This document shows, in pieces, positions 56,427 through 64,000 of a DNA stretch of 64,000 nucleotides. The position numbers and the translations under genes were made by a program. The stretch is from an uncultured Lachnospiraceae bacterium (GTDB lineage: Bacteria; Bacillota; Clostridia; Lachnospirales; Lachnospiraceae). The notes below the pieces were generated by a model. That model did no database searches, was not told where the DNA came from, and saw only the letters and a list, made by a program, of their open reading frames with translations. The stretch covers positions 124,001-188,000 of the forward strand of contig CANQSA010000002.1 in assembly GCA_947626415.1 (NCBI GenBank). The letters are read 5' to 3'. The stretch's first letter is position 1. Every line of letters starts with the position of its first letter.

Positions 56427-56471
56427 TATAATATTTGATGTTTTTTAATATACTTGTATTTTTTTCACAAC

Positions 56472-56522
56472 AAAAAAAGAGCTGTTATCAGTAACTTATT
56501 TTATACTAAACAACAGCTCTTT
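56472..56522 (-). terminator. Terminator of the kinase/phosphatase operon
   Basis: Arms AAAGAGCTGTT and AACAGCTCTTT (25-nt loop) followed on the minus strand by a run of T (TTTTTTTGTTG). It lies 70 bp past the stop of the PASTA kinase. Confidence 0.8.
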
Positions 56523-56591
56523 AATATTATACTTATTTTTTATGTTTTTTTAACTATATCATCATATATAATATAGCATTTTGAATTATTA

Positions 56592-59500
56592 TTATTTTTT
56601 CTGATATTTAACCCATCTTTGTATATTTTTTATCGTATTTGAAGCAGTTACCTCCGTTTTGGATTCTTTAGCCTCTGTTTTTGTGTGATAATAGGTATAA
56701 ATTAACTGACGATCCCTATAACGGTATTCAACATGAGTTTCAGCCGGAACTTGAGTTGCCTCTCCAAAAAACCATTGATTACACCAACTATGACCACATT
56801 TACTGGATCCGTAGTATCCGTATAAACCTCTTCCGGAATCAACAAGACTAAGCGGGTATGTTAAGATGATTTCATCATAAATATTACATCCATTCCATCC
56901 TTGTGTACCATACCAATAATGATTAGAACTACGATAAATCCAATATCGATAATTTGTATACGCTGCTCTATCTATCACTACTTTCGTTTCTATTTGTCTG
57001 GAATCACTGTTACTAACCGCTGTTCTCGACCAGTCACTCCAGGAAGAATAATCACTCCATTTAGAAGTTGTATTGTAAAGCGTATATCCCGGTTCATACG
57101 ATTTATTTGATGTAATATTTGTCACAAGATCATAAGTCCATTTCTGTTCCACAATCTTTGCTCCGGACGGGATTTTAGAAGCCAGCACCCAGTCTGATAC
57201 CGAGTTTTTTGTCCAGTGTGCATATAAAGTGTGTGCATCCGCGGCTGAAACAACTGTTGACGCCGTAATATTTTTCCCTTCACTTGCTGAAGTATACCAT
57301 CCTAAAAATGTATAGTATTCTCTACTAGGTATAGGTAATTCCCCATACGGTGAATTATATTGAACAGTGACACTTGCTTTTGTTATATTCCCCCCATTTG
57401 GATCAAGAGTCACTCGATACTGATTAACATGCCACTGAGCATATAAAGTTTGATCCTTTCTTAGGGAGTAAATTGTATTTTCCGTCACTTTACTTCCACC
57501 GTTTGATGATGTATACCACCCGTCAAAAGTATATCCTTTTCGAGTTACAGATGGCAAGGTACCATATTTTTCCCCAAAGGTCACTTTCTTTTGATTCAGA
57601 GTCCCAGTACCTCCATTTGCTTTAAATGATACAGTATAAGAATTTGCATTCCACTGAGCATATAAAGTTTGATCCGTTGTTAATGAATAAATCGTATTTT
57701 CCGTCACTCTACTTCCACCGCTTGCTGATGTATACCATCCGCTAAAAGTATATCCTTTTCTGGTTACAGATGGCAAGGTACCATATTTTCTGTCAAAAGT
57801 TACTTTCTTTCGCTCCAGAGTCCCGGTACCCCCATTTGCTTTAAATGATACAGTGTATGAATTTGCTTTCCAACCAGCGTAGAGGGTATGATTGGAAGAA
57901 GTAGTTATCTGCATATTTTTTGTTACCTGGACACCTCCTGATTTTTCCATATACCAACCGGAAAATGTATATCCTGCTCTAATTGGAATCGGAAGTTGAA
58001 GTTTACCATAAGTATCCAGCACATACGCCTGCTTACTTGCAATATTTACAGAACCTCCATTTGCATCAAACGAAACGGTGACTGCCTGTTTTCCTTTACT
58101 TACATAAAGAACAATTGTTTCTCCCGGTAATTGTGCAGTACCCGATTTGGGAGATTGCTCAATAATGGTACCAGCCGGAACAGCAGCATCATAATTTTCC
58201 AGAGCTGTAACTTGAAATCCCTGATCTTTCAATATCTTTTCAGCCTCTTGCCGCATCTTTCCAACAACGTTCGCAACTTCTATTGTTTCACGTCCGCTGG
58301 ATACTATAATCGTTATCTGATCACTTCGTTTTACATTTGTACCTGCAGAAATACTCTGACTGATAACATTACCTTCTGCAACATTTTTATCCTTCTTGTA
58401 CTCTACATCAACTACAAGTCCTTTTTCCGTCAATGTGTTTTTTGCAATATCTTCCTTTTGTCCAACCACATCTGGCATAGAAAAAGCGGCAGGACCGATT
58501 GATACAGTCAGAGTAATGCTTGTCCCTTCTTCAACTTCTGTTCCAGCCTCTACACTTTGAGAAATTACAGACCCATATGCGACTACTTCATCATTTTTTT
58601 CCACAAAATGCGGGTTATTCAATCCTGCTTTTAAAAGTTTTTCAACTGCATCCTCTTTGGTATCCCAAATCACATAAGGAACTGTGGACACTCCATTTTC
58701 AGGAGATTCTATCTTCTTCCCACTGCTGACCATGAGAAGTACAGTCCCATTCTTATCTATATAGGATCCTCCCACAGGTGTCTGCAAGATAATTTTTCCG
58801 GCATTGATATATTCTGATTCTATAGATCCATCTGTTGCCGCCAGCAAATTCCCCTCTTCTATCAATTTTAATGCCTCTTCTTTGTTCAGTCCTTCCACAT
58901 CCGGTACAATTACAATATTGTCAGGAATCACTATTTCTTCCGTAAAATTTGAAAAGTTAATCTTGCCCGTTATCAATAATGCTCCAAATACCAAAATAAG
59001 AGCCATAGCCACCGGTAGGATAATTTTTAACCACAAAGGCCATGCGTATAAGTCTATTTTCTTTATCTTTCCATAGATTCTTTTTACAGGGACATCAGCA
59101 TTCAAATCTTTTATAAACGTTGCAATATCCTGGGTTCGGTCTTCCTTCCGAACATTCATTGCATTCAAAATTGCATTTTCCCTGTTACGTGATAATTTTT
59201 TATTGATTTTATGTGGTTCTACAAGAATTTCCTTTTTTCTATTCTCATATTCGGCGCGCCGCTCCATTGCATCCGGCGGCCTTTTCCCTGTTATCATTTT
59301 ATATAAGGTAGCAGCAACCGAATATACATCTGTATAGGGTCCCTGTTTTCCCTTACTCTGGTATTGTTCTGCAGGAGAGTATCCCGGTTTTATAATTGTG
59401 GTCAAACTTCTGCTGTGTGATGTTGTAGCATATCTGGATGCCCCAAAATCAATCAGTTTAACCTCTCCGGTTTTAGTAAGAAAAATATTATCCGGTGCAA

Positions 59501-60068
59501 TATCTCTATGTATCAGTCCCTCCGTATGTACTACCTGCAAAGATTCCATAATCGGCATTAACATAGCAACTGCAGTATCTTCAGGAATTGTACCTTCTCT
59601 CTTCAAATATTCGGTCAAAGTTTCTCCGTCCAGATATTCCATGATGATATATGCCGTATCATTTTCCTCAAAACTGTCAAAAATTTTAACGATTCCGGGT
59701 TCATTTTGAAATTTTGCAAGATGCTTTGCTTCCTCAATAAACTTTTTCAAACCGTCATTAAATTGTTCGCTTTTTTCGCCTTCAAAAACTTTTACCTGAG
59801 ATCTCCCCGGTATTCTAGTTGAAAATTCACCCGGTAAATATTCTTTAATAGCAACCTTTTGTTCCAGGCGTCCGTCCCATCCAATATAAGTAACGCCGAA
59901 TCCGCCATAACCAAGTACTTTTCCTACAATATATCTTTCATGCAATAATGAACCCGTTTCCAGATGAATTGCTTCTTCAACCTCAGTTCCAACCACATAA
60001 CCGCAGTGCGGACATACTTCAAACTCATTTCCAAACAGTTCCATACATCCTAAACATCTTTGACTCAA
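56592..60068 (-). CDS. Zinc-ribbon Ser/Thr kinase with PASTA, InlB-like repeats and Trp-rich tail
   Basis: 1158-residue membrane kinase. An N-terminal zinc ribbon (CLGC, CPHC) leads into the kinase (~40-300): GYGGFGVTY loop, ATP Lys in VAIKEYL, HRDIAPDN catalytic loop (Lys of HRDxKxxN is Ala), IDFGASR. One helix (LWLKIILPVAMALILVFGAL, ~340-362), then outside: four PASTA domains (~380-665; each with PDVVG-like start), four beta-grasp InlB/Listeria-Bacteroides repeats (GYTFSGWY ... TLYAQW, ~668-950) and a ~200-residue Trp/Tyr-rich end (WSDYSSWSDWSRT, YRYRDRQ, with CGHSWC). PASTA domains bind muropeptides or wall. Start is TTG 60068, with AGGTGA 6 nt upstream, which overlaps the end of the previous gene by its ribosome site. 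Confidence 0.88.
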   Translation of the reverse strand: MSQRCLGCMELFGNEFEVCPHCGYVVGTEVEEAIHLETGSLLHERYIVGKVLGYGGFGVTYIGWDGRLEQKVAIKEYLPGEFSTRIPGRSQVKVFEGEKSEQFNDGLKKFIEEAKHLAKFQNEPGIVKIFDSFEENDTAYIIMEYLDGETLTEYLKREGTIPEDTAVAMLMPIMESLQVVHTEGLIHRDIAPDNIFLTKTGEVKLIDFGASRYATTSHSRSLTTIIKPGYSPAEQYQSKGKQGPYTDVYSVAATLYKMITGKRPPDAMERRAEYENRKKEILVEPHKINKKLSRNRENAILNAMNVRKEDRTQDIATFIKDLNADVPVKRIYGKIKKIDLYAWPLWLKIILPVAMALILVFGALLITGKINFSNFTEEIVIPDNIVIVPDVEGLNKEEALKLIEEGNLLAATDGSIESEYINAGKIILQTPVGGSYIDKNGTVLLMVSSGKKIESPENGVSTVPYVIWDTKEDAVEKLLKAGLNNPHFVEKNDEVVAYGSVISQSVEAGTEVEEGTSITLTVSIGPAAFSMPDVVGQKEDIAKNTLTEKGLVVDVEYKKDKNVAEGNVISQSISAGTNVKRSDQITIIVSSGRETIEVANVVGKMRQEAEKILKDQGFQVTALENYDAAVPAGTIIEQSPKSGTAQLPGETIVLYVSKGKQAVTVSFDANGGSVNIASKQAYVLDTYGKLQLPIPIRAGYTFSGWYMEKSGGVQVTKNMQITTSSNHTLYAGWKANSYTVSFKANGGTGTLERKKVTFDRKYGTLPSVTRKGYTFSGWYTSASGGSRVTENTIYSLTTDQTLYAQWNANSYTVSFKANGGTGTLNQKKVTFGEKYGTLPSVTRKGYTFDGWYTSSNGGSKVTENTIYSLRKDQTLYAQWHVNQYRVTLDPNGGNITKASVTVQYNSPYGELPIPSREYYTFLGWYTSASEGKNITASTVVSAADAHTLYAHWTKNSVSDWVLASKIPSGAKIVEQKWTYDLVTNITSNKSYEPGYTLYNTTSKWSDYSSWSDWSRTAVSNSDSRQIETKVVIDRAAYTNYRYWIYRSSNHYWYGTQGWNGCNIYDEIILTYPLSLVDSGRGLYGYYGSSKCGHSWCNQWFFGEATQVPAETHVEYRYRDRQLIYTYYHTKTEAKESKTEVTASNTIKNIQRWVKYQKK

Positions 60069-60070
60069 CT

Positions 60071-62056
60071 TTACTCACCTCTCCTTTTAAAAACAAACTT
60101 TTGTTTTATATCTGACAGTGCTGCAAGCTGCATTGACTGAATTTTTGATTCAAAGCAAGTAGGATTTACCGGAATTTGTCCGTCATTACACTCACTTATC
60201 ATTAAATAGTTTTGATATACATTTCCCAACATCCAGGCAAGCAGCCTTTCCGCAGCCTCTAATTCTTCTTTTGTCCCGCTGCCAATACTCCATTCATAAA
60301 TAAACTTGCATTGTATCTCATCACTATCAAAATAAACATATGTTTTTTCGTAATTTGTTAATTTAGTTCGAACTTCATTTATCATCATTGTTGATGATAA
60401 TAATACCGGGCTGCTATTGGCTTCATTATTTAAAAACTCCTCTTTTGAACATAACCCGCTAACACTAAAATTTGCTTTTAAAAGGTCCTCACACCGATCA
60501 TCATATGCTATATGGTCAGACGAAAAATCACTGATGCTGTGGAAATAATTATCGGAATAGTTGATGCAACTGGCTCCATTTGTAATTACAAACGCAACCG
60601 GCACTTCTATTGCAAGTGGAACTTGTTTCCTATTATCATAATAATCTGAATACTGATTTAAAAACATTGCGCTTTTAAATTGTTCTGAATCAATCACAGA
60701 ATCCAAATCTTCCGCCTTTTGCAGTATATCCACGGGTAATCCCGTACTTTCAAACAAAGTTGGAAGTTTTCCCTGATCAGCAGCTTCTTGAATCCGCTTT
60801 TCATATTCTGCTTCAGGAATCGCAACTGTCTCAACAGTGATTCCTTCGTTTTTATGTTCGAAATCTGTCCGAATAACCTGCATGGCATCTGTTTCCTGCG
60901 ACCCCTCAGATACAGAATACCAGACAACAATATCAGCCGGATCTAAATATCCTTTTTTTCGTTCATTTTGATATGTATTATATACAACAACCGTTCCGAT
61001 AAGGAGAATGATAACCGCAGCAGCAATTCCAAAAAAGCGTTTCAAATTTCTTCTCTTTTTTTCCTTTGCTAACGGAAGTACTTTCCGTTCACCGTTAATT
61101 GCACGCAAAAATTCCTGCACTGTTTGAAAGCGCATATGTTTTTCTATAGCCATTGCCTTCATGATAGCATTGCTTAAATTTTCAGACAGCAATGGATTTA
61201 ATAAATGCGGCGGCACAACTTCATCCTTATTATCCCTTCTATCTGTAGCCTCATCCGGTTTCACACCGGTTAACATCGCATATAAAGTTGCCCCTAATGC
61301 ATAAATATCAGTCCATGGACCGAGTGTATTATTTTTATCATACTGCTCTACAGGGGAATACCCGGGTTTTAAAATAACATCAATTATTTCATCTGTACTG
61401 TCTGCCAGTTTTGCTGCTCCCAAATCCAATAACTTAACTGACTGACGATCTCTGATTCCGTTAGCGGAACAGATATAAATGTTATCCGGAGCGACATCAC
61501 AATGAATGATATTTTGTTCATGAAAAGACTTTAAAGCATTCCCTACTTCATTAGCTACCATCAATGCGAAATCCATATCTGCTTTACCACCGGATTTCTT
61601 CAAATATTCTCTTAAGGTTTCTCCCTGGAGAAGTTCCATCACAATGTAAGCCGTATTATTTTCTTCAAAAAATTCAAATACATTCGGTATACTTCTATGG
61701 CTTCCAAACTTTGCCATATTTCTTGCCTCTGCAAGGAACCGCTTCTTTCGATACTCAAATTCTTCCCTTGACTTTTTTGCAATAATCAAGTTTTTCAAGC
61801 CTACCGCTCTTGTAGCAAGACGACTTACAAAAAACTCTTTAACCGCAACAATAGTCTCCAGTTTTTTATCCCATGCCCGATAAACAATTCCAAATCCTCC
61901 TGATCCGACTGCCAGCCCAAGTATATAGCGGCCTGCCAGTATAGTTCCCGGGGCTAAATGAATGGGCTCTATGGCTTCTTCTTCAATGTTTCCGCAATAA
62001 GGACAAACTTGATATTGATCATCATATTCCCCAAAACACGAATAACATCTTTTCAT
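60071..62056 (-). CDS. Zinc-ribbon Ser/Thr kinase fused to a solute-binding-protein-like domain
   Basis: 661 residues. Zinc ribbon C4, C7, C18, C21; kinase domain (~40-300) with AVGSGGFGIVY, VAVKEFF, HCDVAPDN (Asp kept, Lys changed to Ala) and LLDLGAAK (Gly-Phe of DFG changed to Leu-Gly); membrane helix (~338-358, FFGIAAAVIILLIGTVVVY). The outside part (~365-661) resembles family 1 ABC solute-binding proteins: IVVWYSVSEGSQETDAM, ITVETVAIPEAEYEKRIQE, LPTLFESTG and VPVAFVITNG. So a sugar- or peptide-binding fold may switch the kinase. Start ATG 62056 follows GGAG; 17 earlier codons belong to the FHA gene end. It overlaps the FHA gene by 4 bp (ATGA). Confidence 0.85.
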   Translation of the reverse strand: MKRCYSCFGEYDDQYQVCPYCGNIEEEAIEPIHLAPGTILAGRYILGLAVGSGGFGIVYRAWDKKLETIVAVKEFFVSRLATRAVGLKNLIIAKKSREEFEYRKKRFLAEARNMAKFGSHRSIPNVFEFFEENNTAYIVMELLQGETLREYLKKSGGKADMDFALMVANEVGNALKSFHEQNIIHCDVAPDNIYICSANGIRDRQSVKLLDLGAAKLADSTDEIIDVILKPGYSPVEQYDKNNTLGPWTDIYALGATLYAMLTGVKPDEATDRRDNKDEVVPPHLLNPLLSENLSNAIMKAMAIEKHMRFQTVQEFLRAINGERKVLPLAKEKKRRNLKRFFGIAAAVIILLIGTVVVYNTYQNERKKGYLDPADIVVWYSVSEGSQETDAMQVIRTDFEHKNEGITVETVAIPEAEYEKRIQEAADQGKLPTLFESTGLPVDILQKAEDLDSVIDSEQFKSAMFLNQYSDYYDNRKQVPLAIEVPVAFVITNGASCINYSDNYFHSISDFSSDHIAYDDRCEDLLKANFSVSGLCSKEEFLNNEANSSPVLLSSTMMINEVRTKLTNYEKTYVYFDSDEIQCKFIYEWSIGSGTKEELEAAERLLAWMLGNVYQNYLMISECNDGQIPVNPTCFESKIQSMQLAALSDIKQKFVFKRRGE

Positions 62057-62727
62057 TCTTCTTTCTCCTTTTTGTCTATTTCTTCCCACGAAAATGATTC
62101 TCCGCAAAATGGAACAAACATAAATTTACTGTCTCCTAATTCGATTACGTCATAGGAAGTCAGTTTTTGAACACTGGTAACCAAATTATCATTTAAATAT
62201 GTAATTCCACTGCTGTCACCGGGCTGAAGATAAAAATCTCTTTTTTTGGGTTCATACACAATCATTGCATGCTTTATACGTGATATACTACCGTCATCAG
62301 TTATGGCAATTCGATTTTCCGTACTTCTGCCAATAGAATTCTGACCCGCATAAATAAAAAAACTTTTTCCGAAATGATACCCCTTGATACATACTATCCA
62401 TCCAACGACCGGATCTGATAAATTTTCATATCGTTTTTCATCAGGCTGCTGTCCGGCTACCTTATTAAAATATCCTATTGTTTTTTCTTCATTGCTGGCA
62501 GACGCTTTTTTTACAACTTCTTTCAGTTTGTCTTTCTGGTTGATTACGATTTCTTCTGTCACGGAGTCGCCTTTATCATAACTTGTTTTATTTTTCCTTC
62601 CCATAAAGCGGCTGCTTTCAGAAACAAATTGACTCCCATTACAATGCGGACAGCTTTTGTATTGTTTTTTGTCATAAAAATGTCCGTTTTCACATTGAAT
62701 TACATCTTCTTGTCTTACACTACTCAT
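62053..62727 (-). CDS. FHA-domain phosphothreonine reader with zinc-binding N-terminus
   Basis: 224 residues, cytoplasmic. The N-terminus has CENGHFYDKKQYKSCPHC, a likely single zinc site like the kinases' ribbons. A Lys/Glu-rich linker follows, then the FHA domain (~105-210) with NSIGRSTENRI (Gly-Arg-Ser), DDGSISRIKHAMI (Arg-His core) and DSSGITYLNDNLV (Asn region). It would bind phosphothreonine made by the neighbouring kinases, giving the module a reader. It overlaps the downstream kinase by 4 bp, and the PP2C gene precedes it by 18 bp. Confidence 0.85.
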   Translation of the reverse strand: MSSVRQEDVIQCENGHFYDKKQYKSCPHCNGSQFVSESSRFMGRKNKTSYDKGDSVTEEIVINQKDKLKEVVKKASASNEEKTIGYFNKVAGQQPDEKRYENLSDPVVGWIVCIKGYHFGKSFFIYAGQNSIGRSTENRIAITDDGSISRIKHAMIVYEPKKRDFYLQPGDSSGITYLNDNLVTSVQKLTSYDVIELGDSKFMFVPFCGESFSWEEIDKKEKEE

Positions 62728-62745
62728 AATTAACTCCTTTATTAT

Positions 62746-63543
62746 TTATTTTATGCCTATCAATGCTATTGTCATATTATCTCTGGATTTTTGATTGCTT
62801 TTTGCGTTTTTCTCCGCTTTCATTTCCAGCGCCTGAACAGCTTCCTCTATATTTTTAAAATTACTCAGGATTCTTAAAATTTCCGAATCCGTAACCGTTT
62901 TATATAAACCGTCCGACATAATAATAATCCTATCTTCTTTTTCCAAATCCAACGGAATTTCCGAGTAATCTATCAATTCAAGATTCCCGATTCCCAAGAA
63001 ACTAATCAAGGCCTCCCCCCTCTTACTTTCTTTGTAAAATTCCGTTTCATCTAATAACCCCGCTTTTCTTTTTCCGAGCAGCACAGTATAATAATTTTGA
63101 TCTTGCGTCAGTTGAACAATCTCTCCATTTCTCATCAAATACGCTCTGCTGTCTCCTACAGAACACCATATAAGTTTTTTTCGATTGACTAAAACAGAAA
63201 CAACTGTACTGCCTGCTTTAAGCAGCTTTCCATCGCTTCCTTTCAGACCTGAAATCATTTTATCGATCTTTTTAGCAGCGCTGATCAACATTTCTTTTTG
63301 TTCCCCTGCAAAATAATTATTTTCATACTGCCTTAAAAAAGTTTCTACTGCTAATTCACTGGCTGCCTTTCCGCCTTCCTGTCCTCCCATTCCATCGCAT
63401 AAAACAAGCAACCCCTCATCTTGTTTCATACTATATCCAAAACTATCCTGCTGCGTATCCCTATCTCCAATTACAGATAACGCAGCAAGTCTAAATACAG
63501 AATTTTCATCTTTTATTAAATAATGGTCTTTATGAATTAACAT
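62746..63543 (-). CDS. PP2C-type Ser/Thr phosphatase
   Basis: 265-residue PPM phosphatase that removes phosphate from Ser/Thr with two metal ions. Motifs: LCDGMGGQEGGKAASELA (motif with metal Asp and Gly pair), WCSVGDSRAYLMRNG, IIMSDGLYKTVTD and NMTIALIG at the end with the last metal Asp (RDNMT). RDTQQDSFGYS near the start supplies the first Asp. Start: ATG 63543 with AGAGGA 7-8 nt upstream; 9 extra codons upstream overlap the end of the next phosphatase. It probably opposes the two kinases of the same operon. Confidence 0.93.
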   Translation of the reverse strand: MLIHKDHYLIKDENSVFRLAALSVIGDRDTQQDSFGYSMKQDEGLLVLCDGMGGQEGGKAASELAVETFLRQYENNYFAGEQKEMLISAAKKIDKMISGLKGSDGKLLKAGSTVVSVLVNRKKLIWCSVGDSRAYLMRNGEIVQLTQDQNYYTVLLGKRKAGLLDETEFYKESKRGEALISFLGIGNLELIDYSEIPLDLEKEDRIIIMSDGLYKTVTDSEILRILSNFKNIEEAVQALEMKAEKNAKSNQKSRDNMTIALIGIK

Positions 63544-63557
63544 ATCTGTTCCTCTTT

Positions 63558-64000
63558 TTATTGATTCCATACAGCGATTGCAGAATAATTATCCATATCT
63601 TTTTCTATTCCATTAGTCTGAACGATTTGAACCATATTGTTTAACCATTCTTCAACCGTTTCTGCTTTTTTTAATTGTGCACACATTTCCTTTTCCTCGA
63701 TTAATTCCCAAAATCCATCCGAACATAAAAGGAAAGCCTGACATTTTTTCAGCGGAATTGGACTCATAAGTTCAAACAAGTTTTCGTCCCACTCGATTCC
63801 CAACACTCTTAATAAGAAATTACGATCCGGATGATTTCTTATCTGATCCTCCCTGATTTCCTTTGATAAAACCAGCATTTGAGGAATACTATGATCCAAT
63901 GTTCTTATTTTAACTTTATTCTTATAGAAGACATACGCCCGAGAGTCTCCAATATGTCCGATATACGCATTTTTGCCGTCAGTAACTACCGAAACTCCAG
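63558..64000 (-). CDS. Second PP2C-type phosphatase (5' part outside window)
   Basis: The C-terminal half of another PPM phosphatase; its start lies beyond base 64000. The frame is open to the edge and carries YIGHIGDSRAYVFYKNK, FLLCSDGFWELIEEKEM and a final DNYSAIAVW, all in the order of PP2C. Reading it as a separate 113-residue gene from an internal TTG is wrong, because the motif GDSRAY lies upstream of that codon. It is followed 14 bp later by the first phosphatase. Two PP2C in tandem, with different sequences, may dephosphorylate different targets or one kinase each. Confidence 0.85.
   Translation of the reverse strand, partial: GVSVVTDGKNAYIGHIGDSRAYVFYKNKVKIRTLDHSIPQMLVLSKEIREDQIRNHPDRNFLLRVLGIEWDENLFELMSPIPLKKCQAFLLCSDGFWELIEEKEMCAQLKKAETVEEWLNNMVQIVQTNGIEKDMDNYSAIAVWNQ

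Follow-up and report, generated by a model that had tools for sequence, protein, structure and literature searches.

A Ser/Thr kinase with a predicted sugar-type solute-binding ectodomain, encoded in a type VII secretion cluster, as a putative receptor kinase

What would a membrane Ser/Thr kinase whose outer half is folded like the sugar-binding protein of a transporter be sensing, and which process would it control? This question is raised by a gene in the window (the whole stretch of 64,000 nucleotides analysed here) that joins a kinase to a solute-binding protein (SBP) domain, and whose product is referred to below as the kinase-SBP (Table 1). The best explanation, to which about an even chance of being correct is given, is that of a receptor kinase that senses outside the cell and sets phosphothreonine/FHA control of a T7SSe-like secretion machine.

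Table 1. Features of the kinase-SBP locus (positions beyond 64000 continue on the contig past the window)
Feature	Position	Strand	Basis
19.8-kb low-GC island with type VII and kinase genes	56449-76219 extended (56449..64000 in window)		GC, absence in G012
Terminator-like inverted repeat at the operon's downstream end, AAAGAGCTGTT...AACAGCTCTTT	56475..56525	-	Read in sequence
Zinc-ribbon kinase, 4 PASTA and 4 Listeria-Bacteroides (InlB-type) repeats	56592..60068	-	Pfam
Ser/Thr kinase with SBP ectodomain (kinase-SBP), 661 aa	60071..62056	-	ORF and Pfam; fusion conserved
Ectodomain of kinase-SBP, predicted family-1 (sugar-type) solute-binding fold, residues ~371-661 (modelled as 368-661)	60074..60946	-	Pfam, profile, model
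Single transmembrane helix of kinase-SBP, residues ~341-365	60962..61036	-	Hydropathy
Hanks-type kinase domain of kinase-SBP, residues ~43-325	61082..61930	-	Pkinase E 3e-31; catalytic residues
N-terminal zinc ribbon of kinase-SBP, residues 1-24, Cys 4, 7, 18, 21	61985..62056	-	Homologue alignment
Zinc-ribbon FHA protein	62053..62727	-	FHA E 3e-9; 4-base overlap with kinase-SBP start
PP2C-type phosphatase	62746..63570	-	PP2C_2 E 5e-16
Second PP2C-type phosphatase	63558..64000, on to 64292 past window	-	PP2C_2 E 5e-15

The ORF of the kinase-SBP was read from an ATG start at 62056, with the longest frame beginning slightly earlier at a TTG (62107), and scans for promoters and terminators within the gene gave counts near chance. 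Every cysteine of its zinc ribbon is kept in 28 or more of the 30 homologues compared. The Pfam Pkinase match spans residues 49-277 (E 3e-31), and the domain has the hallmarks of a Hanks-type kinase, namely the Gly loop, VAVK lysine, alpha-C Glu, catalytic Asp, Asn, the Asp-Gly of DFG and the APE Glu. Residues K73, E110, D187, N192, D211 and G213 are invariant in all 30 sequences compared, the sole exception to invariance among the kinase positions tested being the first glycine of the Gly loop (27/30). HRD is replaced by HCD in the copy at 60071-62056 only, and DFG there reads DLG; both positions vary in other active kinases too, with the HRD arginine absent from some. The kinase-SBP falls outside the Stk1/PknB PASTA kinases, scoring 151.9 bits on the family model against a cut-off of 450, and no PASTA repeats were detected by Pfam in residues 368-661. 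It shares with those kinases a Hanks domain, one membrane helix and an outside sensor, and differs in lacking the repeats; the next gene downstream is of that type. A role as a phage-defence kinase was considered and dropped, as the defence-system models matched kinase or ATPase domains only, which is expected of any kinase. A KEKKRRNLKR run lies ahead of the membrane helix which, by the established positive-inside rule, would place the kinase inside the cell and the C-terminal 290 residues outside.

From its sequence and a structural model, this outside portion is predicted to have a family-1 (sugar-type) solute-binding fold. SBP_bac_8 was matched at residues 397-489 (E 5.9e-7, 30.0 bits against a gathering score of 27 bits), the match to SBP_bac_1 was under its cut-off, and a profile was constructed from 11 ectodomains, 8 of which match SBP_bac_8 individually. 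Compared with solved structures, this profile matched sugar-binding proteins, the best being 7v09 (E 4.9e-9), over two separate stretches, one in the N-terminal lobe and a later one ending in the LPVN motif. An AlphaFold2 model of residues 368-661 (mean pLDDT 85, pTM 0.84) was aligned by VIA-align to 7v09 (Z 20.4, rmsd 3.8) and to YcjN 8vqk (Z 20.0, rmsd 3.7), each alignment taking in 278 of 294 residues, in a comparison in which 954 of 1000 chains reached a Z of at least 8. The top Foldseek match of the model was 5f7v, the cycloalternan-binding Lmo0181 (E 3.9e-13). The ectodomain therefore unites the sequence profile of the family with its two-lobe alternating alpha/beta fold. The earlier note had described a kinase core, one membrane helix and an SBP-like outside domain, a description on which Pfam, profile and model agree, and the periplasmic-binding-protein fold that it proposed for residues 365-661 was confirmed (Z 20) on the modelled part. 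A shared fold does not by itself establish that the ectodomain binds a solute.

Reading of the contig past the window edge showed the kinase-SBP to be gene 14 of 15 on one strand, with intergenic gaps of -13 to 219 bases. In order, the cluster encodes an EssC-like ATPase, a YukD-like protein, two WXG100 proteins, a lipoprotein, a DUF6382-FHA protein, a small membrane protein, an Mbeg1-like hydrolase, two more WXG100 proteins, two PP2C phosphatases, the zinc-ribbon FHA protein, the kinase-SBP and the PASTA kinase, the gene of the latter starting 2 bases downstream of the kinase-SBP. The ATPase (1526 residues) reaches 1058.9 bits on the NCBI EssC equivalog TIGR03928 (cut-off 778.4) and has an FHA domain that retains the GR, S.H and NGT positions, while all four WXG100 proteins are at or above the Pfam cut-off; with an EssC/EccC ATPase and WXG100 proteins, the cluster belongs to type VII secretion. 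The YukD-like protein (84 residues) was assigned by resemblance, with no Pfam match to YukD, and the small membrane protein (84 residues) was assigned as a T7SSe counterpart by resemblance only. The Mbeg1-like protein is a 568-residue alpha/beta hydrolase (L031:9169-10875) adjoining the two extra WXG100 genes; it looks like a candidate secreted substrate, with the extra WXG100 proteins as its partners. The PASTA kinase (56592-60068) combines PASTA and InlB-type repeats with a further outside tail, which is unusual for an Stk1-like kinase.

Subtype T7SSe, described in 2024, comprises a membrane kinase, a PPM phosphatase, a DUF6382-FHA protein, two WXG100 proteins and an FHA-bearing ATPase, with TseI being a large Ig-domain envelope protein (Garrett, Higginson and Palmer, PMC11217815). 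By gene list the locus resembles this subtype, as Pfam located the FHA-bearing TseC, TseA, TseA2, the DUF6382-FHA protein TseJ, the PPM phosphatase TseF and a membrane kinase. It shares with the T7SSd-T7SSe cluster an FHA-bearing EssC, a core of two WXG100 proteins, a PPM phosphatase and a DUF6382-FHA protein and, by resemblance, may share the YukD-like protein and the small membrane protein. For the further subtype members TseB, TseH and TseK, these two 84-residue proteins are the putative counterparts. Unlike T7SSe, the locus has a pair of kinases, a pair of phosphatases and an FHA protein encoded separately, and where a clear 1,700-residue TseI would be expected there is a lipoprotein of 736 residues with a weak Big_2 match. 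The kinase-SBP is like the T7SSe kinase TseD in being a membrane Ser/Thr kinase with its kinase domain in the cytoplasm and its C-terminal part outside. However, the kinases of T7SSc/d are described as helical outside (PMC11217815), and TPR repeats take this place in the kinase of the T7SSe-type locus of G095, whereas the ectodomain here has a predicted solute-binding fold. An identification of the kinase-SBP as TseD was dropped, since one genome (G720) appears to combine a T7SSe-type locus that has a different kinase with an SBP-kinase on a separate contig.

The cluster lies in an island with a GC content of 0.363 over 19,771 bases, compared with 0.48-0.49 in both flanks. A genome of the same genus (G012) is precisely without the island, its flanks being 93-94% identical with 29 bases between them. 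As the flanks meet there without the island, the kinase cassette comes and goes with the type VII genes as a single unit. No direct repeat beyond 10 chance bases was found at the island ends, no integrase was found to explain its transfer, and no tRNA was detected by ARAGORN anywhere in the window. Just outside the island (L032, extended positions 76366-77832), a protein of ~490 residues with an N-terminal helix-turn-helix is encoded divergently beside the EssC gene, and similar-sized proteins with a similar start were seen near two related clusters (L111:2711-4195, L095:14079-15557).

The proposed writer, readers and erasers of phosphothreonine are encoded side by side. The earlier note inferred a nutrient-sensing route, but a type VII locus whose partners are PP2C and FHA proteins suggests that secretion, not metabolism, would be under control. 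The FHA positions of EssC have been tied to possible control by threonine phosphorylation (PMC11217815), and precedents for kinase control of secretion include the Agrobacterium T6SS and the action of IreK on the Enterococcus T7SSb (as cited in PMC11217815). Under the receptor-kinase reading, the ectodomain, descended from an ABC sugar-binding protein, would sense a ligand, which may be a small glycan, another solute or a cell-wall partner. Its binding would alter lobe closure or receptor pairing, and the single membrane helix would relay the signal to the cytoplasmic kinase, which may then phosphorylate its own threonines and those of machine components. The FHA domains of EssC, the DUF6382 protein and the neighbouring FHA protein would read these marks and so influence how the machine assembles or how active it is, the two PP2C phosphatases would remove them, and the adjacent PASTA kinase may provide a second input, probably derived from the cell wall. 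In this scheme we infer ligand binding and the identity of the ligand, transmembrane signalling, the substrates, and the direction of the effect on secretion and the effect itself. A narrower version, in which an extracellular solute, probably a glycan, turns type VII secretion on or off through threonine phosphorylation that the FHA domain of EssC reads, and in which the same cassette is reused for further machines of the cell surface, Tad-type pili among them, is put forward tentatively and is itself rather doubtful.

The rival explanation that survives best, although judged to be rather unlikely, is that the SBP fold is ligand-less and holds the kinase at the machine or the wall by binding a protein, for example the 736-residue lipoprotein. 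The ectodomain resembles sugar-type ABC SBPs (SBP_bac_8/SBP_bac_1; YcjN, MsmE, Lmo0181) in fold and in distant sequence similarity, but it is ~100 residues shorter than the matched solved proteins (~400 residues) and is tethered to a kinase. Its anchor is the kinase's own helix, it has no lipobox, and no ABC permease gene is present in the cluster, so that the lipobox and gene linkage typical of a transporter SBP are missing. It also diverges faster than the kinase, with identity down to 21% where the whole proteins keep 36-38%. For a distant homologue with this 21% ectodomain identity, SBP-type proteins were again the top structural matches, with a weaker model in which one lobe is of low confidence. 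Short and fast-diverging as the ectodomain is, ligand binding may have been lost, and these features would suit a docking role. However, near-clade ectodomains are well conserved (44-69%), including PLxIEVPxA and SPVxLSSTM, which is as compatible with a retained pocket as with a docking surface.

A second rival, unlikely on the present evidence, is that of a general nutrient receptor kinase that controls metabolism in the manner of GlnH-GlnX-PknG, with the type VII neighbourhood being a passenger effect of the shared island. Control of a Ser/Thr kinase by an SBP does exist (PMC6069109, PMC9769921), and relatives of the fold bind sugars. The mycobacterial and corynebacterial GlnH-GlnX-PknG relay likewise has a solute-binding protein outside and a Ser/Thr kinase inside, but it consists of three separate proteins, with an amino-acid ligand, a soluble kinase and a metabolic target (PMC6069109, PMC9769921). 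The kinase-SBP does not belong to this relay, being one polypeptide with a predicted sugar-type fold among secretion genes. Also in keeping with a nutrient receptor, 11 of the 21 fusion-bearing genomes have neither a convincing EssC (short FtsK-like matches only) nor a WXG100 gene, and so the kinase-SBP is not bound to the type VII machine. Against this rival, the cluster is without metabolic or transport genes, and where flanks could be read, the kinase-SBP of most homologous loci adjoins a PP2C gene, a second kinase and usually an FHA gene, these being the constant neighbours across genomes. Moreover, in several genomes the cassettes away from type VII genes adjoin Tad-like or vWA-FHA genes and not catabolic genes: Tad-pilus-like genes, recognized by reading and not by family search, in G318, G253 and G534, and vWA-FHA proteins in G360 and G318. 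The PP2C-FHA-kinase-SBP cassettes at L098, L101 and L109 are divergent copies, beside TadE-like, TadC-like and prepilin peptidase genes and a DUF6382-FHA protein, with no type VII genes found on these three stretches.

Type VII genes were identified on the same stretch or contig as the fusion in G017, G109, L020, L023, L024 and L025. Among 299 family genomes, with counts joined from separate searches, the fusion was found in 4 of the 7 genomes with the close T7SSe-like EssC type versus 10 of the 292 others (Fisher p 1e-4, kinship ignored). Other loci with this EssC type have a different kinase, with TPR repeats in G095 and PASTA in G002. The TPR kinase in a T7SSe-type locus indicates that the machine can do without the SBP domain, and the differing kinases suggest that the place of the sensor kinase is filled by different ectodomains. 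By gene content, the kinase cassette thus appears to be a module separable from the type VII machine.

The fusion itself was found in ~30 distinct clostridial genes in the genome search that the earlier note had called for, of which a scan of genome contigs yielded 11 loci at 36-74% identity. In profile searches, which covered 397 genomes of the family and 391 of the class, fused genes are separated by a gap from stand-alone SBPs, having long frames and mostly E below about 1e-12. For the extracted genes, the kinase was matched as well in those that are long, and a lipoprotein-type signal stands at the start of most stand-alone ones. When 28 fused ectodomains were placed in a tree with 34 stand-alone proteins, those from fusions grouped as a single clade (support 100/99) apart from the transport-type SBPs, which fits a single fusion event, the root of the tree not being known and several branches being long. 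The fusion therefore appears to be old and retained. Homologues with the two parts as separate genes were sought, and none is split between them; the only split homologue, in G075, is broken within the kinase domain, and would reflect decay, rearrangement or an assembly error. In G075 (L027:7473-9964, same contig as L106) the first half of the broken kinase-SBP is continuous with the zinc-ribbon portion of the FHA gene. A second and divergent copy of the kinase-SBP gene was seen in G017, on a different contig (L103:13291-15051) and with no PP2C neighbour on the stretch read. That two separate genes were fused by assembly or gene calling, for which the two frames of the G075 homologue (L027/L106) could be cited, is regarded as already refuted and as having next to no chance of being right, given the fused genes in so many different genomes and the position of that lone split.

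SBPs that stimulate Ser/Thr kinases, and dCache sensors within such kinases, have been mentioned (PMC9602780); the dCache kinases have a ligand-binding ectodomain fused likewise, but of a fold unrelated to the SBP. The words solute and PASTA are absent from the main text of PMC11217815, and in the open-licence papers searched no description was found of a sugar-type SBP-Ser/Thr kinase fusion, or of one in a type VII locus. Names of the type bifunctional kinase/substrate-binding protein may be in use for some actinomycete proteins. Among plasmid-borne kinases, a collection that makes a poor test, annotation names revealed no other kinase-SBP fusion. The claim of the earlier note that such a route was not known as described thus holds for the direct fusion in the papers searched, and does not extend to SBP control of a Ser/Thr kinase by separate proteins, as in GlnH-GlnX-PknG, or to T7SS loci with membrane kinases, both of which are known.

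The trigger of type VII secretion in gut clostridia and the signals that bacterial Ser/Thr kinases sense are both open questions. A fold with ligands that can be screened by thermal shift, tied to a kinase in an all-or-none secretion operon, makes both of them testable. The kinase-SBP may let an outside molecule control the type VII machine of a gut bacterium.
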